This document shows positions 30,212 through 59,641 of a stretch of DNA of 64,000 nt, piece by piece (position 1 is the stretch's first letter; every line of letters starts with the position of its first letter). The position numbers and the translations under genes are program-made. Source of the DNA: Tsuneonella amylolytica (lineage in GTDB: Bacteria > Pseudomonadota > Alphaproteobacteria > Sphingomonadales > Sphingomonadaceae). Where the stretch lies: the NCBI RefSeq assembly GCF_003626915.1, contig NZ_CP032570.1:1-64000 (forward strand), in the 5' to 3' direction. The notes beneath the pieces are model-generated. The model was not told the origin of the DNA. It searched no databases and saw only the letters and a program-made list of their open reading frames with translations.

Positions 30212-30859
30212 CTAACGGCCGAACATGCCAAGCCGCATCGCCGCGAGCACGGCGCCCCGCCCGGCCAGCATCGGCTCGCCCCGAACCAGAGACCGGGCCG
30301 CCAGCCCGTCGAGTACCGCGACCCCGCGCAGATTGCGCGATATCGAGACAGGCGGCGGAAGCGCGCGTCCCATCGTACGGGCGACGACGCTTCCCGCACC
30401 ATGCGCGACCTCGGCCAGAGCCCAGCGCCTGCCGGCAACGGATGCTGCTTCGGCTTCGGCCTCGGCACCGATCATGCCCGCCAGCTCAGCCAATGCCGCC
30501 CCTCGCGCTTCGGCGAAAATGGTGATCGACCCCTCCATAGGCTCGTCGTCGCCGAGCATCTGCTCCCATCTGTCCACCAGCGCCGAAAGTGCCTCCTCGT
30601 GCTCCGCCCACGTCGATCCGATGGCACTGAGCAACGGTTCGCCGGCGGGCCGGTCATCCGCCACCTCCGCCAGCCGCTCGCGCCACCAGGCGAACTTGAT
30701 CTGAGCTAGCATCGCCTCGCGCGCCTGCCCGACGATCCCCGCCAGACGCGTGTCGAGCGCGAAAAGAGTGGCCAGCGGAGCACGGGTCGCCATCGGTTGC
30801 CAGGCAAGCGCAACCGCGAGGTGATCCGGCAAATTTCCGTTAACCATATGGTTTGACAT
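30212..30859 (-). CDS. Short squalene/phytoene-synthase-like protein
   Basis: 215 aa with the start of the squalene/phytoene synthase fold: FALDTRLAGIVGQAREAMLAQIKFAWWRE is the family's first helical block (quoted as landmarks FALDTRL and IKFAWWRE). It is shorter than real synthases (about 280-350 aa), and the second aspartate-rich DxxxD motif is not visible. It may be a non-catalytic homologue, like mitochondrial NDUFAF6, rather than a carotenoid enzyme. No crt genes are nearby. The start codon region overlaps the palindrome AACCATATGGTT and the promoter of the divergent pilus operon. Confidence 0.65.
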   Translation of the reverse strand: MSNHMVNGNLPDHLAVALAWQPMATRAPLATLFALDTRLAGIVGQAREAMLAQIKFAWWRERLAEVADDRPAGEPLLSAIGSTWAEHEEALSALVDRWEQMLGDDEPMEGSITIFAEARGAALAELAGMIGAEAEAEAASVAGRRWALAEVAHGAGSVVARTMGRALPPPVSISRNLRGVAVLDGLAARSLVRGEPMLAGRGAVLAAMRLGMFGR

Positions 30860-30881
30860 GGCGATTACCAGCTTTCGCTAT
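30840..30881 (+). promoter_or_regulatory. Promoter and CtrA-like motif of first TadG-E-E set
   Basis: TTAACCAT (30840-30847) matches the CtrA-type half-site known from alphaproteobacterial cell-cycle promoters, and is part of the perfect palindrome AACCATATGGTT (30842-30853). A perfect -35 hexamer TTGACA lies at 30853-30858, with CGCTAT at 30876-30881 after 17 bases as the -10. The first pilus gene starts 19 bases further on. The operator-like site is just upstream of the -35, a position suited to activation. It is also inside the 5' end of the divergent gene. Confidence 0.6.
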
Positions 30882-30900
30882 CGATTGGTCGAAGGACTCA

Positions 30901-32250
30901 ATGCGCAAGGTGCTTATGATCGGCAAACTCCGTCGCTTCGCGAACGAATTGGTGCGCTGTCGTTCAGGCAACGCGATGATGCTGACGGCCGTGGCGTTAC
31001 CCGGCCTTCTTGCAGGCGTGGGCTACGGCGCTGACACAGCGCAGATGTACATGATCCAGCGCGAATTGCAGCACGCTGCCGATCAGGGCGCCATCGCAGG
31101 TGCCTGGACGCTGGCCTACAAGGACACCGGTTCGACATATAACGGTCGGGCGACGAAGGAGTTCACGAACAACCTGAGCATGGCGAAAAAATATGTGGCT
31201 GCGCCGATCGTGCCCGTCATTACGCGCGGCAACTACAAGGGCGGCACCGAGAACACGGTGGTGCTGCGGGCATCGGTTTCGGTCAATCTGCCCTTCACCA
31301 AGCTCGTCCGGTCCACCCCCACCGTCATCGCGGTCAATTCCGAAGCGGCCTACGCCGCCGGCACCGTTCACCAGGCATGCCTGCGTACGCTCAAGAAGAA
31401 CGCCGACGGTACCTTCCAGATCGGCAACGGCGCGACCGTCATCGCGAACTGCGGGGTGATGGCGATCTCCTGTGCGCCAGGCGCGATCAAGATCGCGGAA
31501 AACGCGACCATCGACATCGCGAAGATCACGGCATGCAACAAGGATGCGGCGATAATTCCGTCAACCTACACCGGCGAACTCGTGCTGGATCAGGCGATCG
31601 GCAACTACACCAACGACCTGTTTGGCCCGGAACCGGCGGAAACCACCCCGCAGAAGACGTACGACTGCAAGAACGCGCCTCATAAAACTACCTACACGAT
31701 CAACCAAGGGTTGTATAAGTCCGGTATCAAGGTCGCCTGCGACACGTTTTTCAATCCCGGCATCTATTATGTCGAGACCGAACTCGACCTGACGGCCAAC
31801 GCGGTCGTCAGCGGCTACGGCGTGATGTTCGTTCTGCGCAAGGGTGCGACGCTCAAGCTCGGCGGCAGCGGGGCCAACGGAACGGGCGGCGGCGGCAACA
31901 TCAAGAGCAGCCTCAACCTCACCCCGCCGACCGCCTCGAAGCTGCTGGCGATGGGCTACACCGAGGACTTCGCGAAGAAGTACGAGAACGTCCTGATCAT
32001 CTCGGACAACACCGAGACCGAGGTCGACCACCAGATCAACGGAAACGCCGACCTGCACATCCAGGGCAAGATCCACCTGCCAAGCGGGAACGTGAAGGTG
32101 AACGGCAATGCCAAGGCGGCAGACGGGGTCTGCTTCCAGATCACGTCCTACACGCTGGAGGTCACCGGCGGCGCCTATCTCTACACCCTATGCAACGAAA
32201 CCGAGACGAACTCGCTGTCGGTCGTCGCGGGCGTGAGACTGATTTCGTGA
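30901..32250 (+). CDS. TadG-like pilus protein, no vWA domain
   Basis: 449 aa. The N-terminus has a TadG/TadE-type lead: basic stretch, CRSGNAMML, then a hydrophobic helix (about 25-45) and an AADQGAIAGAW helix. The middle is Cys-rich, with about nine cysteines. The C-terminal part (about 320-440) is Gly/Asn-rich with alternating residues (INGNADLHI, VKVNGNAKA, LEVTGGAYL), suggesting a beta-helix. No von Willebrand A domain is seen. ATG 30901 has AAGGA upstream. It heads a set of three overlapping genes, and probably sits at the cell surface or in the periplasm as part of a Tad-type apparatus. Confidence 0.75.
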   Translation: MRKVLMIGKLRRFANELVRCRSGNAMMLTAVALPGLLAGVGYGADTAQMYMIQRELQHAADQGAIAGAWTLAYKDTGSTYNGRATKEFTNNLSMAKKYVAAPIVPVITRGNYKGGTENTVVLRASVSVNLPFTKLVRSTPTVIAVNSEAAYAAGTVHQACLRTLKKNADGTFQIGNGATVIANCGVMAISCAPGAIKIAENATIDIAKITACNKDAAIIPSTYTGELVLDQAIGNYTNDLFGPEPAETTPQKTYDCKNAPHKTTYTINQGLYKSGIKVACDTFFNPGIYYVETELDLTANAVVSGYGVMFVLRKGATLKLGGSGANGTGGGGNIKSSLNLTPPTASKLLAMGYTEDFAKKYENVLIISDNTETEVDHQINGNADLHIQGKIHLPSGNVKVNGNAKAADGVCFQITSYTLEVTGGAYLYTLCNETETNSLSVVAGVRLIS

Positions 32251-32699
32251 CGGCATTCTTCCGTTCCCTTTTGCATTGCACGAAAGGCACGCCGGTCATC
32301 GAAACCGCGATCGTGGCGCCGGTTCTGGGCATCATGATGATGGGGACTTTCGAGATGGGCATGATCGTGCAGAAGCAGCAGGAACTCCAAAGCGCCGCCA
32401 CGGAAGCGGAGTCCATCATTCTTGCCGCCGCCGCAGGTGCGGGCGTCACCTCGACCAAGCTGAAGGAACTGCTCTCGACCTCGACCGGTCTGCCGCAGGC
32501 GAACATCGATCTCGTCGCCAGGAAAAGGTGCGGCAATGCGACCGATATGGTCGATCCAGCGGCAGCATGTCCCTCCGGCCAGCAAACCTACCAATTTATC
32601 GTCGCGACGTTTCGATCGTCCTACGCTCCCATATGGAAACAGTTCGGTCTGGGCTCGACGCTGAATTACTCGGTAAAGCGGACGGTACAGGTCGGATGA
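32247..32699 (+). CDS. TadE-like pseudopilin 1
   Basis: 150 aa pseudopilin. The lead FFRSLLHCTKG ends at a prepilin-peptidase type site, G followed by TPVIE with Glu at +5, then a hydrophobic helix TAIVAPVLGIMMMG. The C-terminal part has a Cys pair (KRCGNAT and ACPSGQQ) that may form a disulfide. The GTG start overlaps the stop of the upstream TadG-like gene (GTGA), and the 3' end overlaps the next gene (ATGA), so the three are translationally coupled. Confidence 0.78.
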   Translation: MTAFFRSLLHCTKGTPVIETAIVAPVLGIMMMGTFEMGMIVQKQQELQSAATEAESIILAAAAGAGVTSTKLKELLSTSTGLPQANIDLVARKRCGNATDMVDPAAACPSGQQTYQFIVATFRSSYAPIWKQFGLGSTLNYSVKRTVQVG

Positions 32700-33142
32700 A
32701 GAGCGCTCGGCATCTTGTTCGCGATGTTCGGGGCGCGACTATCGTAGAGTTCGCTTTGATCGCGCCGATCCTCGTCACGATGTTGCTCGGGGTGATCCAG
32801 ATCGGCACTTGGGTGCAGGGCTACAATGCGGTGCGCAACGTGGTGAACGAGACGAGCCGTTTCGCGACGGTCGAGTTCCAGCGCGGTAACAAGATCTCGG
32901 ACGAAGCGATCGCGACCCGCGCACGGCAGGTTGCCGTTAGCAACAAATATGCCTTGGTCGAGGCGGCACTCACGCCGACAGTGGTTCGCAAGACAACACA
33001 GGTGAGCGGCGTACGTCAAATGAATCTCAAGATCGTTTACCAGGCGCCGACTTTCGTGCCCTTCGTGGGCGAAGTGATCCCCGCAATTCAGTACAACCGG
33101 GACATCTACGTCTACGACGATAAGGCGGTCGCCGGAATCTGA
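32696..33142 (+). CDS. TadE-like pseudopilin 2
   Basis: 148 aa. Basic lead, then RG followed by ATIVE (Glu at +5), and helix FALIAPILVTMLLGVIQIG. The C-terminal region is beta-rich, with no cysteine seen. It completes the first TadG-E-E set. The start overlaps the previous stop as ATGA. A short hairpin follows 1 base after its stop. Confidence 0.8.
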   Translation: MKSARHLVRDVRGATIVEFALIAPILVTMLLGVIQIGTWVQGYNAVRNVVNETSRFATVEFQRGNKISDEAIATRARQVAVSNKYALVEAALTPTVVRKTTQVSGVRQMNLKIVYQAPTFVPFVGEVIPAIQYNRDIYVYDDKAVAGI

Positions 33143-33143
33143 T

Positions 33144-33193
33144 CGGGACAAGTCCCGTCGCCACAGCCCCAGTTGCCGAATTAACCATTATCG
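33144..33193 (+). promoter_or_regulatory. Gap between TadG-E-E sets: hairpin and CtrA-like motif
   Basis: Right after the stop comes the inverted repeat CGGGAC/GTCCCG (33144-33157), which could slow or end transcription. It has no T-run. TTAACCAT recurs at 33181-33188, only 5 bases before the TTG at 33194. If the next gene really starts at GTG 33233, the motif lies 45 bases upstream, similar to the 53 bases seen before the first set. No clear -35/-10 pair was found. Confidence 0.45.
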
Positions 33194-35197
33194 TTGAGCA
33201 AGACGTTAGCCGGCCCCCCTTACCGCGTTCGCGTGGCTTCGAGCGTTCTCCCGAATATCAAGCGCCTATTCCGGCTGATCGCGCATCTTGCCGGTGATCG
33301 ATCGGGCAACACGCTTGCTTTGATCGCTGCGGCGATCGCGCCCATCATGGCGATGGTCGGCGGCGGTGTGGATATGGGCCGCTCCTACCTCGCCCAGGCG
33401 CGATTGCAGCAGGCGTGCGACGCGGGGGTGCTGGCGGCACGCAAGCGTCTGGGTTCGGAAGCCCTGGTGACCGGCGCGATACCTGACGATGCGGGGACCA
33501 TCGGTCAGCGGTTCTTCAACATCAATTTCCGGCGCGACGCCTACGGATCGACGGGGCGCGAATTCGCCATGACGCTGGAAGACGACTACGCCATTTCGGG
33601 TGTCGCCAGGGCGACGATACCGACCACGATCATGCGCATTTTCGGGTTCGAGCAGATGCCGCTCGAGGTCAGCTGCATGGCGCAGATCAACTTCGCCAAT
33701 ACCGACGTCATGATGGTCCTCGACGTCACGGGTTCGATGTCCGAAACCAACCCCGGCGATACATCGTCCCGGATGGATACGATGAAGGCGACCATCCGCA
33801 ATTTCCACTCGCAACTTGCCGCCGCGAGCGGCGCGGAATCGCGCATTCGTTACGGCTTCGTGCCCTATTCGACGAACGTGAACGTCGGCGGCCTGCTGAA
33901 AGACGAATGGGTTGTCCCCAAATGGACCTACCAGTCGCGCGATTTGAAAACCGAAGAGGGGCCGGTTACGACCCGCACCTACAATCGCAACTGGACGGCA
34001 GTCAGCGGGACAAGAGGTGCTGCGAGCGTCGAGACGACCTATCCGGCGACATACCTCGAGGCGAAACCCGGCTATTCCTATCTCGACGCCTTCGAAAACC
34101 TGATCGTGGTGCCCGATCGGGCGGCGACCTATTCCTGTGACAGACCCAACCCGGCGAACTCGTTTTCATCGAACGATATCATAACGGGCTCGACCACCCA
34201 GCCCTATATCGGCCTGCCACCCGGCACGCGCAAAATCGAATACCATCGGCTGACGGAAAACGGCACGCGCTACTGGACGGACCGCAGCGGTGACACTTGC
34301 TACGTCAAGAAGCAGGTTTACGATGGTTTCGTCCAAACATACGAACGGGTGACCGATCCCCAGCTCAACCTCATCAGTCGATGGAACTACCGCCCGATCG
34401 AATACGACGTCGCCGATTGGCGCACGCGCGGCAACGGCTGCATCGAAGAACGCGATACCTACGAAATAGGCGACTACGCTTCGGTCGATCTGGCAAAGGC
34501 GATCGACCTCGATATCGACCGCGTCCCCACCGCGGGCGAGCCGGCGACGCAATGGCGACCGATGCGTCCCGATCTGGTCTATGCGCGTGCGATGCGGTGG
34601 AACAACACCGGCGCCTTTCAGGCCGAGCCGATCGTTACAAACGACGAATACGTAAAGCCGCAGTCGCTTGGCACCGCGGCCTGTCCCGCGGCCGCGCGCA
34701 AGCTGTCGACCATGACCAGGACTCAGCTGGACAGCTTTCTTGACAGTCTGCAACCGACCGGCAGCACCTATCACGATATCGGCATGATCTGGGGCGGGCG
34801 CCTGATCTCGCCGACCGGACTGTTCGCCAGCGAAAACGCGGACGTGGCGGGCAAGACCACCGGGCGCCATCTCATTTTCCTGACCGACGGTGAGACCGCC
34901 CCTCTCGACCTCAGCTACTCCAGCTATGGAATGGAGCCGATCGACCGGCGCCGATGGTCGAAGAGTTCCGTGCTTTCCTTGACCCAGACGGTGGAGAACC
35001 GCTTCGCTTTCGCCTGCAAGGAAGTGCGCAAGAGGAACGTCACCGTATGGGTCATCGGGTTCGGCACCGAGCTTAACGAAACGATGAAGGAATGCGCCGG
35101 CCCGGGCCGCTATTTCGAGGCAGCCGATGCGACCCATCTCAACGCGTCCTTTGCCGCGATCGCGAAAAGCATCGCTCGCCTTCGGATCGAACGATGA
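33194..35197 (+). CDS. TadG-like pilus protein with von Willebrand A domain
   Basis: 667 aa. The N-terminal TadG segment (GDRSGNTLALIAAAIAPIMA helix, about 35-55) precedes an AACDAGV-like helix (QQACDAGVLAARKRL). The vWA domain starts near 170. The MIDAS motif is DVTGSMS with Asp177, and the FLTDGETAP strand near 570 belongs to the same fold. A long Tyr/Thr-rich insert separates them. TTG at 33194 lacks a ribosome site. GTG at 33233 is an alternative that still keeps the whole domain. It heads the second TadG-E-E set and may sense adhesion or force. Confidence 0.85.
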   Translation: MSKTLAGPPYRVRVASSVLPNIKRLFRLIAHLAGDRSGNTLALIAAAIAPIMAMVGGGVDMGRSYLAQARLQQACDAGVLAARKRLGSEALVTGAIPDDAGTIGQRFFNINFRRDAYGSTGREFAMTLEDDYAISGVARATIPTTIMRIFGFEQMPLEVSCMAQINFANTDVMMVLDVTGSMSETNPGDTSSRMDTMKATIRNFHSQLAAASGAESRIRYGFVPYSTNVNVGGLLKDEWVVPKWTYQSRDLKTEEGPVTTRTYNRNWTAVSGTRGAASVETTYPATYLEAKPGYSYLDAFENLIVVPDRAATYSCDRPNPANSFSSNDIITGSTTQPYIGLPPGTRKIEYHRLTENGTRYWTDRSGDTCYVKKQVYDGFVQTYERVTDPQLNLISRWNYRPIEYDVADWRTRGNGCIEERDTYEIGDYASVDLAKAIDLDIDRVPTAGEPATQWRPMRPDLVYARAMRWNNTGAFQAEPIVTNDEYVKPQSLGTAACPAAARKLSTMTRTQLDSFLDSLQPTGSTYHDIGMIWGGRLISPTGLFASENADVAGKTTGRHLIFLTDGETAPLDLSYSSYGMEPIDRRRWSKSSVLSLTQTVENRFAFACKEVRKRNVTVWVIGFGTELNETMKECAGPGRYFEAADATHLNASFAAIAKSIARLRIER

Positions 35198-35781
35198 GAC
35201 GAGGTCGCACTCTCGCCGCCGACACGGCGGGCGCCGCGCTGGTCGAGTTCGCGATGGTGGCGCCGGTGCTGCTCGTCTTGCTGCTGGGGCTCTTCGAATT
35301 GGGTTACAACTACTACACCGCCGCCCAGTTGCAGGGCGCGGTGCAGAAGGCGGCGCGTGATTCCTCCACGGAGCGTGCGAACGCCGGTACGGAGGCCATC
35401 GACGACGCGGTGACCGCGGCGGTCCGCAGGATCGTGCCCAACGCGGGCCTCGAGTTCTCGCGCAAGGCCTATTCGACCTTCAGCGACGTCCATCGGCCCG
35501 AGGAGTTCACCGACCTGGACGAAAACGGAATCTGCAACGACGGCGAACCGTTCGAGGATGCCAACGGGAATGGCATCTACGACACCGATCGGGGCATCGC
35601 CGGCGGCGGCGGGGCGCGCGATGCGGTCCTGTACGTCGTACGTGTCAGTTACCGGCGCGCGTTTAACGTGAGCGGGCTTATCGGCCTGTCCGACCGGGTC
35701 GAAACCCAGACAACGACCGTTCTTCGCAATCAGCCTTGGGACGCCCAGCGTGTTCGCGCAGGCGTAGGGCACTGCGTATGA
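35194..35781 (+). CDS. TadE-like pseudopilin 3 with calcium-loop-like insert
   Basis: 195 aa. AG followed by AALVE (Glu at +5) precedes the hydrophobic helix FAMVAPVLLVLLLGLFELG. A central insert (about 107-135) holds DLDENGICNDGEPF and DANGNGIYDTD, dense with Asp/Asn and glycine as in calcium-binding loops. Such loops are not part of a standard TadE. The start overlaps the TadG stop as ATGA. Periplasmic or surface exposure is inferred. Confidence 0.78.
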   Translation: MRRGRTLAADTAGAALVEFAMVAPVLLVLLLGLFELGYNYYTAAQLQGAVQKAARDSSTERANAGTEAIDDAVTAAVRRIVPNAGLEFSRKAYSTFSDVHRPEEFTDLDENGICNDGEPFEDANGNGIYDTDRGIAGGGGARDAVLYVVRVSYRRAFNVSGLIGLSDRVETQTTTVLRNQPWDAQRVRAGVGHCV

Positions 35782-36467
35782 TCCGGCTTTCCGCATTGGT
35801 CCGACGCATCCTGCGGAGCCGATCCGGCACGGCACTGACCGAGTTCGCGCTCGCCGCGCCGGTTCTCATGGCCGCCGGGCTCTGGGGCGTGGAGACGGCC
35901 AATCAGGCGATCGTGCAAATGCGGATCAACCAAATCGCCGTGCTGGTCGCCGACAACGCCGCCCGGGTCGGCGAGAACTCCCTTCTGGGAGAAGCAAAGG
36001 TCTACGAAGCCGATATCAACGACGTTTTGTACGGTGCGCATGTACAGAACGGTTCGTCGTCAGACTTCTACGATCATGGCCGGGTCATCCTGTCCAGCCT
36101 GGAAGTCGTCCCGGATACCGAAGACACGCAATACATCCATTGGCAGAGATGTATGGGCAAGCTGACGTACGCCTCGTCCTATGGTGTAGCGGGTGACGGC
36201 AAGGACGGCAGGCTCGCCGGCCTCGGCCCCCCCGGCGAGGAGATCATCGCCTACAAGGGCGAAGCGGTCATGTTCGTCGAGGTCGCCTACGTCTATCAGC
36301 CGATCATCTCGGACGCATTCACTGCCGCCGGCACGCTCACCGCCACGGCAGCCTTCAACGTGCGCGAAAACCGCGACCTGACCGACGTGTACCAGAGCAA
36401 GCCGTCGGCTCCGGACCCCGTAGCCGACTGCACTCGGCACCAGAACATCGCCGAATACTACGGCTAG
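35778..36467 (+). CDS. TadE-like pseudopilin 4
   Basis: 229 aa, the longest of the four. RSRSG followed by TALTE (Glu at +5) and the helix FALAAPVLMAAGLWGVE. The rest is mixed alpha/beta with Cys in QRCMGKL and ADCTRHQ. It closes the second set. The start overlaps the previous stop (ATGA). The stop faces pdhB with a 9-base gap, with no obvious terminator between. Confidence 0.75.
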   Translation: MIRLSALVRRILRSRSGTALTEFALAAPVLMAAGLWGVETANQAIVQMRINQIAVLVADNAARVGENSLLGEAKVYEADINDVLYGAHVQNGSSSDFYDHGRVILSSLEVVPDTEDTQYIHWQRCMGKLTYASSYGVAGDGKDGRLAGLGPPGEEIIAYKGEAVMFVEVAYVYQPIISDAFTAAGTLTATAAFNVRENRDLTDVYQSKPSAPDPVADCTRHQNIAEYYG

Positions 36468-57418: not shown

Positions 57419-59641
57419 CTATCGGTATCGCTCGGCCGCATTGCGGCGGGCGGTCCACCACGGATGGTCGCCCTGCCGGGCGGCCACCGTCGTGAGGCGC
57501 GGCGGGTCGAGCGTTATCGCCAGCCCGCCGTTCGCATCCAGAAACCGGCGATCGGCCTTGAGCCAGCGCGGCCGGCAGCTGGCGGGCAGCCAGCGGTCGG
57601 CGACGACGATGTCCGACCGTTCGCATGCCGCCGCCAGCGCGCGTTCCTCGATCCGCGACCTGCTTCGGGCGAGCAGCACGGTCCAGGTTTTCCCTCCGCG
57701 ATCGATCGCCAAGGCGCAGAAGTCGGCGCTGCACCGCGCGCCGGGCCAATCGGCGATCGCCAGCGGATCGCCCTTCATACCGGCCATTTCGAGCAGATTG
57801 TCGCGCGCATAGTCGCTCCGCCCTTCGCGCAGGACGAGCAGGCGATCGCCCTCGCCGGCGATACCGACATGTCGGCCATCGCCCGAAACCAGCATGTCGG
57901 GCGTCGGCGTGACCAGCAACATGCCGCCGGCTATCGCAATCGAAACGAAACCCCACAGGCGCCGCCGCCCCTTCCACAGCGCCAGCCAAAGAAGGCCGGC
58001 TATGAACAGTGCGTACGTTCCCCACCCCATCTGCGGCATGAGACGAACCGCCCCCGGCTGTGCGGCGGTGTAATGCGCGATACCGAGGAGGAGATCGAGC
58101 GATTGCCCGGCCAGCCACCACACCGGCCCGCCGAGCCCGAACAGGTCGAGCACGAGCGCAAGCGCGATCAGCGGCATCGACGCAACCGTCACCAGCGGAA
58201 TGGCGACGACGTTCGCGATCGCGCCGTAGAAGCCGGCGCGGTGGAAGTGGAACAGCACGATCGGCATCAAGGCCAGTTCGATGACCACGCCCGTCAACAG
58301 CAGCATGGCGGCGCGGCGTCCTGTCCTGGACAGCCAGCTTTCCTCGCGCGGGACGAGGAACGCGCGGATCGGCGCGGCCTCGTGGAGGGCGACGATCGCG
58401 ACGACCGCGGCGAAGCTCATCTGGAAGCTCGGCCCCATCAGGGCCTCGGGCCAAATGAGCAGGACGGCGAAAGCCGCAGTGGCGACCATCCGCATGGAAA
58501 GCGCCTCGCGCCCCATCGCCAGCGCGGCGAGCACGAGCAGGGCGCCGATCACGCTGCGCACCGTCGGCACCTCGGCCCCTGTCAGCAGCGTGTAGGCGAT
58601 GCCGGCGCCCGCACCGCACACGGCGGCGACCAAGGGCAGGCGGATCCGAAGCACCAGCCAAGGCCACAGCGCCAGCAGCCTCAAGGCCAGAACATAGGCC
58701 GCCGCAATCACCGCGCTCACGTGTACGCCGCTGATCGACAGCAAGTGGGTAAGGCCGGAATCGCGCATGGCGACTTCGTCGGCTTCGGCGATCCCGCCCC
58801 GGTCACCGCTGGCGAAGGCGGCGGCGATGCTTCCCGCCGATCCGTCGAGCCTCGAGCGGACGTGCGCCGACAAGGCTCGCTGGATGCTAGCGACGCTTCC
58901 CCCGGTCGCCGTAGGTTCCACCACCTCGATGTCGCCGATGGCGCTTCCCGTCGCGGCGAGGCCCGCGAACCAGGCCGTGCGCGCGAAATCGTAGGCGCCG
59001 GGGACCATCGGCGGGGCAGGTGGCATCAGCCGCGCGCGCACCCTCACCCTTGCGCCTTCGGCTACCGTCGCGGGCATCGCTTGCGTCGGTACGTTGAGCC
59101 GCACCTTACGCGCCGTTCCGGTTTCGGCGTCGCGATAGGCGAGGACGAGCCGAACCCGGCCTTCCGCAGGCTGGTTCTGGCGTGAAAGCACTCGGCCGTC
59201 GATCCAGCTCACGCCAGGCCGGGCAAGAGGCTCCGCGCCGACCGTCGCCGAGCGCATCCAGATCGCACCGGTGCCGAGCGCGATCAACAAGGCGACGGCA
59301 GTCACGGCGGCGTGCAGATGTGCACGCCCATCATGCCCGCGCCATGCCGCTTGCGCCCCGATGGCAATCAAAACGCTCGCGCCGATCATGGCCAGCCAAG
59401 CGACCGGTCCGGGCAGGACGAACCATGCGCCGACCCCCCCGGCGAAGGCGACCGTCATCCACGGTGCCCGGTCGAATCCCGCCGTGGCCAGAAACGCTTC
59501 CGCCCGGTCGGCGAAACCTGCGGGGAGGCTGGACAAGGGCGCGCCCATGGGCCAAGACTGCTGCAATGCAGCATCGCCCGGTGGAGCCCCCTGCTCCTCA
59601 CCCCCGGAGAGGGGCACCAGCGGCGCGGTACCGATCGCCAT
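57419..59641 (-). CDS. ComEC/Rec2-family DNA-uptake channel protein
   Basis: 740 aa membrane protein with about ten helices. A DUF4131 region (about 60-200) leads, then the competence domain (LLSISGVHVSAVIAA, EVPTVRSVIGALL as landmarks). A C-terminal MBL-like part is present but reduced (ends near 740, with no HxHxDH seen). It imports single-stranded DNA across the inner membrane in competent bacteria. Whether this host is competent cannot be said. ATG 59641 is preferred over 59677. Confidence 0.88.
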   Translation of the reverse strand: MAIGTAPLVPLSGGEEQGAPPGDAALQQSWPMGAPLSSLPAGFADRAEAFLATAGFDRAPWMTVAFAGGVGAWFVLPGPVAWLAMIGASVLIAIGAQAAWRGHDGRAHLHAAVTAVALLIALGTGAIWMRSATVGAEPLARPGVSWIDGRVLSRQNQPAEGRVRLVLAYRDAETGTARKVRLNVPTQAMPATVAEGARVRVRARLMPPAPPMVPGAYDFARTAWFAGLAATGSAIGDIEVVEPTATGGSVASIQRALSAHVRSRLDGSAGSIAAAFASGDRGGIAEADEVAMRDSGLTHLLSISGVHVSAVIAAAYVLALRLLALWPWLVLRIRLPLVAAVCGAGAGIAYTLLTGAEVPTVRSVIGALLVLAALAMGREALSMRMVATAAFAVLLIWPEALMGPSFQMSFAAVVAIVALHEAAPIRAFLVPREESWLSRTGRRAAMLLLTGVVIELALMPIVLFHFHRAGFYGAIANVVAIPLVTVASMPLIALALVLDLFGLGGPVWWLAGQSLDLLLGIAHYTAAQPGAVRLMPQMGWGTYALFIAGLLWLALWKGRRRLWGFVSIAIAGGMLLVTPTPDMLVSGDGRHVGIAGEGDRLLVLREGRSDYARDNLLEMAGMKGDPLAIADWPGARCSADFCALAIDRGGKTWTVLLARSRSRIEERALAAACERSDIVVADRWLPASCRPRWLKADRRFLDANGGLAITLDPPRLTTVAARQGDHPWWTARRNAAERYR

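Follow-up and report, generated by a model that had tools for sequence, protein, structure and literature searches.

Six genes of Tsuneonella amylolytica probably encode two alternative minor-pilin tip modules of a core Tad machine whose own genes are dispersed over the same chromosome, and we place the probability of this reading at about 0.68. The model is built on homology, gene order, the presence of the machine, the old paralogy of the two sets, their separate and joint occurrence in other genomes, and predicted folds. The window is the whole stretch of DNA analyzed, 64,000 nucleotides that comprise positions 1–64000 of a single 2.786-Mb contig. The six genes lie on the plus strand at window positions 30901–36467 and are flanked on both sides by genes of the opposite strand. 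They form set 1 (TadG1, TadE1, TadE2) followed by set 2 (TadG2, TadE3, TadE4), where a slash marks the predicted prepilin site.

30901–32250, plus strand: TadG1; pilin module at about residues 24–155 and C-terminal beta-solenoid head at about 156–436, without a vWA domain; PF13400 E 2.7e-7.
32247–32699, plus strand: TadE1 minor pilin; site G/TPVIE; PF07811 E 5.2e-10; own clade; GTG start overlaps the TadG1 stop (GTGA overlap).
32696–33142, plus strand: TadE2 minor pilin; site G/ATIVE; PF07811 E 9.2e-13; own clade; ATGA overlap.
33194–35197, plus strand: TadG2; pilin module and vWA domain split by a beta-rich insertion; PF13400 E 6.5e-11, VWA PF00092 E 2.1e-5.
35194–35781, plus strand: TadE3 minor pilin; site G/AALVE; PF07811 E 1.4e-13; own clade; ATGA overlap.
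35778–36467, plus strand: TadE4 minor pilin; site G/TALTE; PF07811 E 0.033; clade with other TadE4 proteins; ATGA overlap.

The first-pass annotation of this DNA described six overlapping genes in two TadG-TadE-TadE sets. Their place and order and the overlaps within each set hold, but the two sets do not overlap each other. With refined starts, neighbors inside each set overlap by 4 bp and a 51-bp gap separates set 1 from set 2. The 4-base overlaps suggest translational coupling within the sets. The HMM searches that the annotation had proposed placed five of the six proteins above the curated Pfam cut-offs for TadE (PF07811) or the TadG-type family (PF13400). TadE4 falls below its cut-off, yet it groups with the TadE4 proteins of other genomes with support of 100/99; its position in set 2 is TadF-like. 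All four TadEs have the Gly, four residues and Glu that had been noted (GTPVIE, GATIVE, GAALVE, and GTALTE) ahead of a hydrophobic helix. The shared RSGN or CRSGN reported before the helix of the TadG-like proteins is seen as CRSGN and DRSGN, and both proteins have the Gly ahead of the helix, without a Glu at +5. PF00092 matches TadG2 only, which agrees with the earlier restriction of the vWA domain to the second TadG-like protein. The Pfam models and cleavage sites thus uphold the assignment of these genes to TadG/TadE-type minor pilins in two specialized sets. The TadG-TadE-TadE arrangement is far beyond chance, because TadE genes lie downstream of TadG1 in all 64 TadG1 loci with sufficient flank among the matches listed. 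A promoter scan of the region found no promoter-like site, and a terminator scan gave a single terminator-like site, on the opposite strand; shuffled sequences gave more. Clustering of the neighboring genes yielded no functional lead, and several of the clusters were wrong-frame open reading frames.

The sets had been described as lacking Tad machinery. This is correct for the window, which contains no Tad motor, CpaB, or Flp, but not for the genome, which has two Tad machines on the same chromosome. One is compact and is termed locus A (genome 484.9–495.8 kb, minus strand; L010 8858–19770). Its order is Flp-like genes, CpaB, CpaC, a small open reading frame in the place of CpaD, TadG, TadE, TadE, CpaE, TadA, TadB, and TadC. 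The second machine is dispersed: CpaA-CpaB-CpaC-CpaD-CpaE-TadB-TadC lie together at 2,220.5–2,227.8 kb, tadA maps near 935 kb, and flp maps near 2,546.9 kb. The proposed check for tadA and flp elsewhere in the genome therefore located both, in addition to locus A. No TadG or TadE gene was found at the dispersed machine's own loci. Every PF07811 and PF13400 match of the genome falls either in the window or in locus A, which leaves the dispersed machine without another candidate minor-pilin set. Two further matches were recorded. A T2SSE-family ATPase at genome 974.0–975.1 kb (L009) is 36% identical to TadA over residues 117–409; it is perhaps VirB11-like and lies in no Tad locus seen here. A Flp-like match at genome 2663069–2663197 (L015) scores slightly under the curated cut-off, and no tad genes were seen nearby.

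TadE/F/G genes usually, though not universally, lie within a tad operon. Because gene position varies, a location outside the operon does not exclude membership in a Tad system. Motor, platform, secretin, CpaB, peptidase, and Flp are all encoded in the same genome as the six genes; the six genes are not inside a tad operon in this genome, and their counterparts in relatives of other families are. In those families, the two set-2 TadE genes immediately follow TadC in operons with the order CpaA-B-C-D-E-TadA-B-C (G025, G029, G030, and G036). The cpaA-E/tadABC operon adjoins the whole of set 2 in G027 and G039, and it adjoins set 1 in G033 and likewise in G023, where CpaD was not detected. Adjacency to full tad operons in relatives, as ordinary extra copies, was named by the first-pass annotation as a finding that would count against its own reading, and full operons do adjoin both sets. 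The sets thus belong to an ordinary Tad system and have become separated from its motor genes. In the CpaC and TadB trees, the dispersed machine joins the operons of the other families and locus A stands apart (quick FastTree trees, midpoint-rooted and without support values). G002 and G012 resemble this genome in having neither TadA nor TadG/E genes at their cpa locus. TadE, TadA, and CpaB are all present in the same 38 of 40 relatives, and the remaining two lack all three. The set-1 and set-2 genes beside the equivalent operon in relatives make relocation the most likely history of the six genes, which would encode the minor pilins of the dispersed machine, a judgment drawn from sequence comparison. 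Since hundreds of kilobases separate the tadA, flp, and tip genes, the argument for their joint use comes from comparison among genomes.

The phylogenies separate the two sets. The TadG1 clade (18 rows, support 100/99) and the TadG2 clade (27 rows, support 99/96) each span several families of the order, and the TadG of locus A falls in a clade of its own (6 rows, support 100/100). TadE1, TadE2, TadE3, and TadE4 also form separate clades. Separate clades that span several families mean that the sets diverged before the families did, and on the evidence of these trees the two sets are old paralogues. A recent local tandem duplication is rejected as the source of the duplicated TadG-TadE-TadE unit that the annotation had inferred, since the TadG1 and TadG2 clades and the four TadE clades each span families. 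The deep pairing of the TadEs, which bears on whether the older event copied a whole TadG-TadE-TadE unit, has little resolution: TadE1 with TadE3 has support of 47/20, and neither TadE1 with TadE4 (p-AU 0.46) nor TadE1 with TadE2 (p-AU 0.31) is rejected. The full TadE tree hinted at TadE1 with TadE4, and this pairing was lost in a smaller set.

The distribution of the sets was surveyed in 89 genomes of the family, with TadG1 scored as present at E below 1e-50, a cut of our own. TadG1 is present in 25 genomes and TadG2 in 63. Both sets occur in 16 genomes, set 1 only in 9, set 2 only in 47, and neither in 17. A cpaB match accompanies the sets in 71 of the 72 set-bearing genomes (Fisher p 1.3e-4, with related genomes treated as independent). 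Genome G095, a fragmented assembly, has a partial TadG1 match and no cpaB match. Eleven genomes have cpaB and neither TadG type at the thresholds used, and some of these carry other, longer TadG-like genes. Eight genomes combine both sets with a single cpaB match. The same range is found within the genus, where G001 and G004 have set 2 only and G005 has set 1 only, each with one cpaB. Interchangeable tips predict just this pattern, in which a machine is accompanied by one or two sets. The sets occur singly or together across the family and outnumber the machines, which makes the "alternative tip complexes" suggested by the first-pass annotation the best fit.

Several loci depart from the common arrangement. 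G007 has an additional, diverged copy of set 1 elsewhere in the genome (L092 5752–8374). G012 has the reversed order, set 2 and then set 1, plus a third, separate set 2 (L096 5225–11108 and L113 6557–10022), with one cpaB match. Two consecutive TadG2 genes occur at L191 9013–15552, G079:C1:1138590–1142548, and G090:C120:1641–5584; in L191 a lone TadE3-TadE4 pair follows them, an arrangement in which both vWA heads might use the same TadEs.

A different use of the same genes would be co-assembly, with both sets contributing to a single enlarged complex at the tip (or base) of one pilus, which would contain as many as six minor pilins and two heads. The tandem arrangement suggests co-expression and gives this idea its appeal. 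The two sets form one short operon here with the 51-bp gap between them, tandem sets occur in 6 of the 11 genus genomes examined, and set 2 lies directly downstream in 26 of 64 TadG1 loci among the matches listed from a scan of 84,980 species genomes that returned at least 80 TadG1 loci. However, the many genomes that have the machine and a lone set (9 with set 1 only and 47 with set 2 only) argue against a joint complex, as do the location of the sets on different contigs in G033 and their reversed order in G012. We consider co-assembly unlikely.

The sets might also serve locus A, whether in place of the dispersed machine or in addition to it. Locus A is patchy in the genus and is present in this genome, where it could use or share the sets, and in five relatives. 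It encodes its own TadG-TadE-TadE, however, in clades apart from both sets, and the sets are present in genomes without locus A (G002, G005, G010, and G012), which makes service to locus A quite improbable. A surface system separate from Flp pili, as had been proposed, or a group of functionless relics would fit the detachment of the genes from the motor genes in the family, but we give this very little credence given two Tad machines and Flp in the genome, the near-complete co-occurrence with cpaB, the intact frames and start-stop overlaps, the invariant MIDAS and conserved cysteines across many genera, and the full tad operons that adjoin the sets in other families.

TadG2 is CpaL-like: besides the pilin module it has a vWA domain that a beta-rich insertion divides in two, and its MIDAS is complete. 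The MIDAS residues D177, T179, S181, T525, and D565 do not vary among 23 homologues; those of Caulobacter CpaL are D160/T162/S164/T470/D515 (PMC12607857). The TadG2 model has a pLDDT of 82.8 with a poorly predicted N-terminal helix. Its nearest structure is PilB, a minor pilin from Streptococcus sanguinis (Z 18.7, 293 residues, rmsd 8.2 Å), followed by Mfa5 (Z 17.9) and SpaC (Z 17.4). PilB, Mfa5, and SpaC are among the structures reported as nearest to CpaL (PMC12607857), so the two proteins have these neighbors in common along with the split vWA domain and the complete MIDAS. The CpaJ-CpaK-CpaL system of Caulobacter crescentus has two small minor pilins and a vWA pilin (PMC12607857, PMC13170226), which is the layout of set 2. 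Only set 2 matches it, because set 1 lacks a vWA domain, and here the genes are far from the machine and beside a second set.

The predicted structure of TadG1 is a pilin whose head is a beta-solenoid resembling those of ComZ and ice-binding proteins. In the AlphaFold2 model (pLDDT 89.3) short strands stack into a ladder behind the pilin module. The head (residues 156–432) aligns with FfIBP-type ice-binding proteins with Z 14.6 over 188 residues (rmsd 2.9 Å), and whole TadG1 aligns with the competence pilin ComZ with Z 11.2 over 304 residues (rmsd 7.8 Å); other beta-helices give Z of 8.6 or less. The top Foldseek row is also ComZ, with E 1.6e-3 and a probability of 0.89 that are modest by themselves. 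A profile search of PDB sequences with TadG1 gave no ComZ match up to E 1 and nothing else of use. TadG1 has no match to a Pfam ice-binding family, and Pfam gives only weak DUF7305 matches to the head in 6 of 54 homologues. The relationship is therefore a resemblance of fold and not membership in either family. Cysteines 160, 184, 256, 411, and 431 each persist in 51 or more of the 54 homologues and cysteine 280 in 37, so disulfide bonds are likely. The heads are mostly acidic, with a mean net charge of −12 over the 54 homologues.

ComZ of Thermus thermophilus (PDB 6QVI) likewise combines a pilin module with a large beta-solenoid whose nearest fold is FfIBP, a match that its authors found independently, and a tip position was argued for it (PMC6561018). 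Its pairing with a small minor pilin is a further likeness to the TadG1 set, but the ComZ pilus is a non-Tad competence pilus. The DUF3494-type ice-binding proteins FfIBP and LeIBP have the fold of the TadG1 head and are not pilins, and the common fold does not show ice binding. ComZ binds DNA and is a tip DNA-receptor pilin (PMC6561018). Tad pili contribute to DNA uptake in Micrococcus (PMC4322843), and, to judge by the title of a study, in Liberibacter (PMC8513845). By analogy, set 1 could act as a DNA receptor. The evidence here does not support this role: the heads are mostly acidic, and ComEC occurs almost throughout the family. The co-occurrence of ComEC is uninformative as a test of DNA uptake, since 85 of the 89 family genomes carry it. 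A ComEC core domain is encoded at window 57965–58810, at a distance from the set that is similar in many relatives; it is near the set also in genomes without set 1, so this is probably regional synteny only. It is a doubtful proposal at present that one Tad machine has two alternative tips with different tasks, in which the vWA tip contacts surfaces and the ComZ-like beta-solenoid tip captures ligands, soluble or polymeric, for example DNA or a polysaccharide. If true, set 1 would give a Tad pilus a receptor tip comparable to the competence tip formed by ComZ, though of separate origin.

In the scheme that we infer for the heterotrimers, their tip position, the alternation between tips, and their ligands, the peptidase CpaA would cleave the leaders after Gly. 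One TadG and its two TadEs would then join through their N-terminal helices into a heterotrimer on the TadB/TadC platform. This heterotrimer would prime the polymerization of Flp and be carried outward as the pilus tip, where the TadG head would determine what the pilus contacts. Set 2 would supply a vWA/MIDAS tip for surface grip, contact, or force sensing, and set 1 would supply a beta-solenoid tip of the ComZ/ice-binding-protein type. Surface grip or force sensing has been proposed for CpaL (PMC12607857). The mechanism is drawn by analogy from CpaJ-CpaK-CpaL and KilLMN, with TadG-TadE-TadE taken as equivalent to CpaL-CpaJ-CpaK and KilN-KilL-KilM.

The KilLMN proteins of Myxococcus xanthus provide the precedent for several TadE/TadF/TadG-like trios on one Tad pilus, as four such complexes serve a single pilus (PMC12075869). 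The Kil trios are in separate clusters and have large pilins with differing heads (PMC12075869); the heads also differ here, and the two sets stand in tandem. The Kil heads serve predation and the KilN4 head is reported to have no PDB match (PMC12075869), whereas the heads described here are a vWA domain and a beta-solenoid. The tad-1/tad-2 competence pilus of Micrococcus luteus is another case in which the minor-pilin and motor genes of one Flp pilus lie in separate, cooperating islands (PMC4322843). That system is actinobacterial, both of its islands have motor genes, and it was assayed for transformation (PMC4322843). In the searchable literature, which includes few subscription journals, we found no description of a Tad tip with a beta-solenoid head or of Sphingomonadales Tad tips. 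The system would thus consist of Tad tip modules that are detached from the motor genes and stand in tandem, one with a beta-solenoid head.

Genetic evidence for exchangeable Tad tips has so far come from Myxococcus, and these data suggest that such tips extend to the Sphingomonadales, including Tsuneonella, Novosphingobium, Aurantiacibacter, and others. Their tip genes lie away from the motor genes and would be missed by operon-based annotation. The repertoire of Tad heads would gain a beta-solenoid similar to ice-binding proteins and to the DNA-receptor tip found in a different class of pilus. Genera with set 1 only, set 2 only, or both exist, and a clear genetic test of tip exchange is therefore possible within the group.
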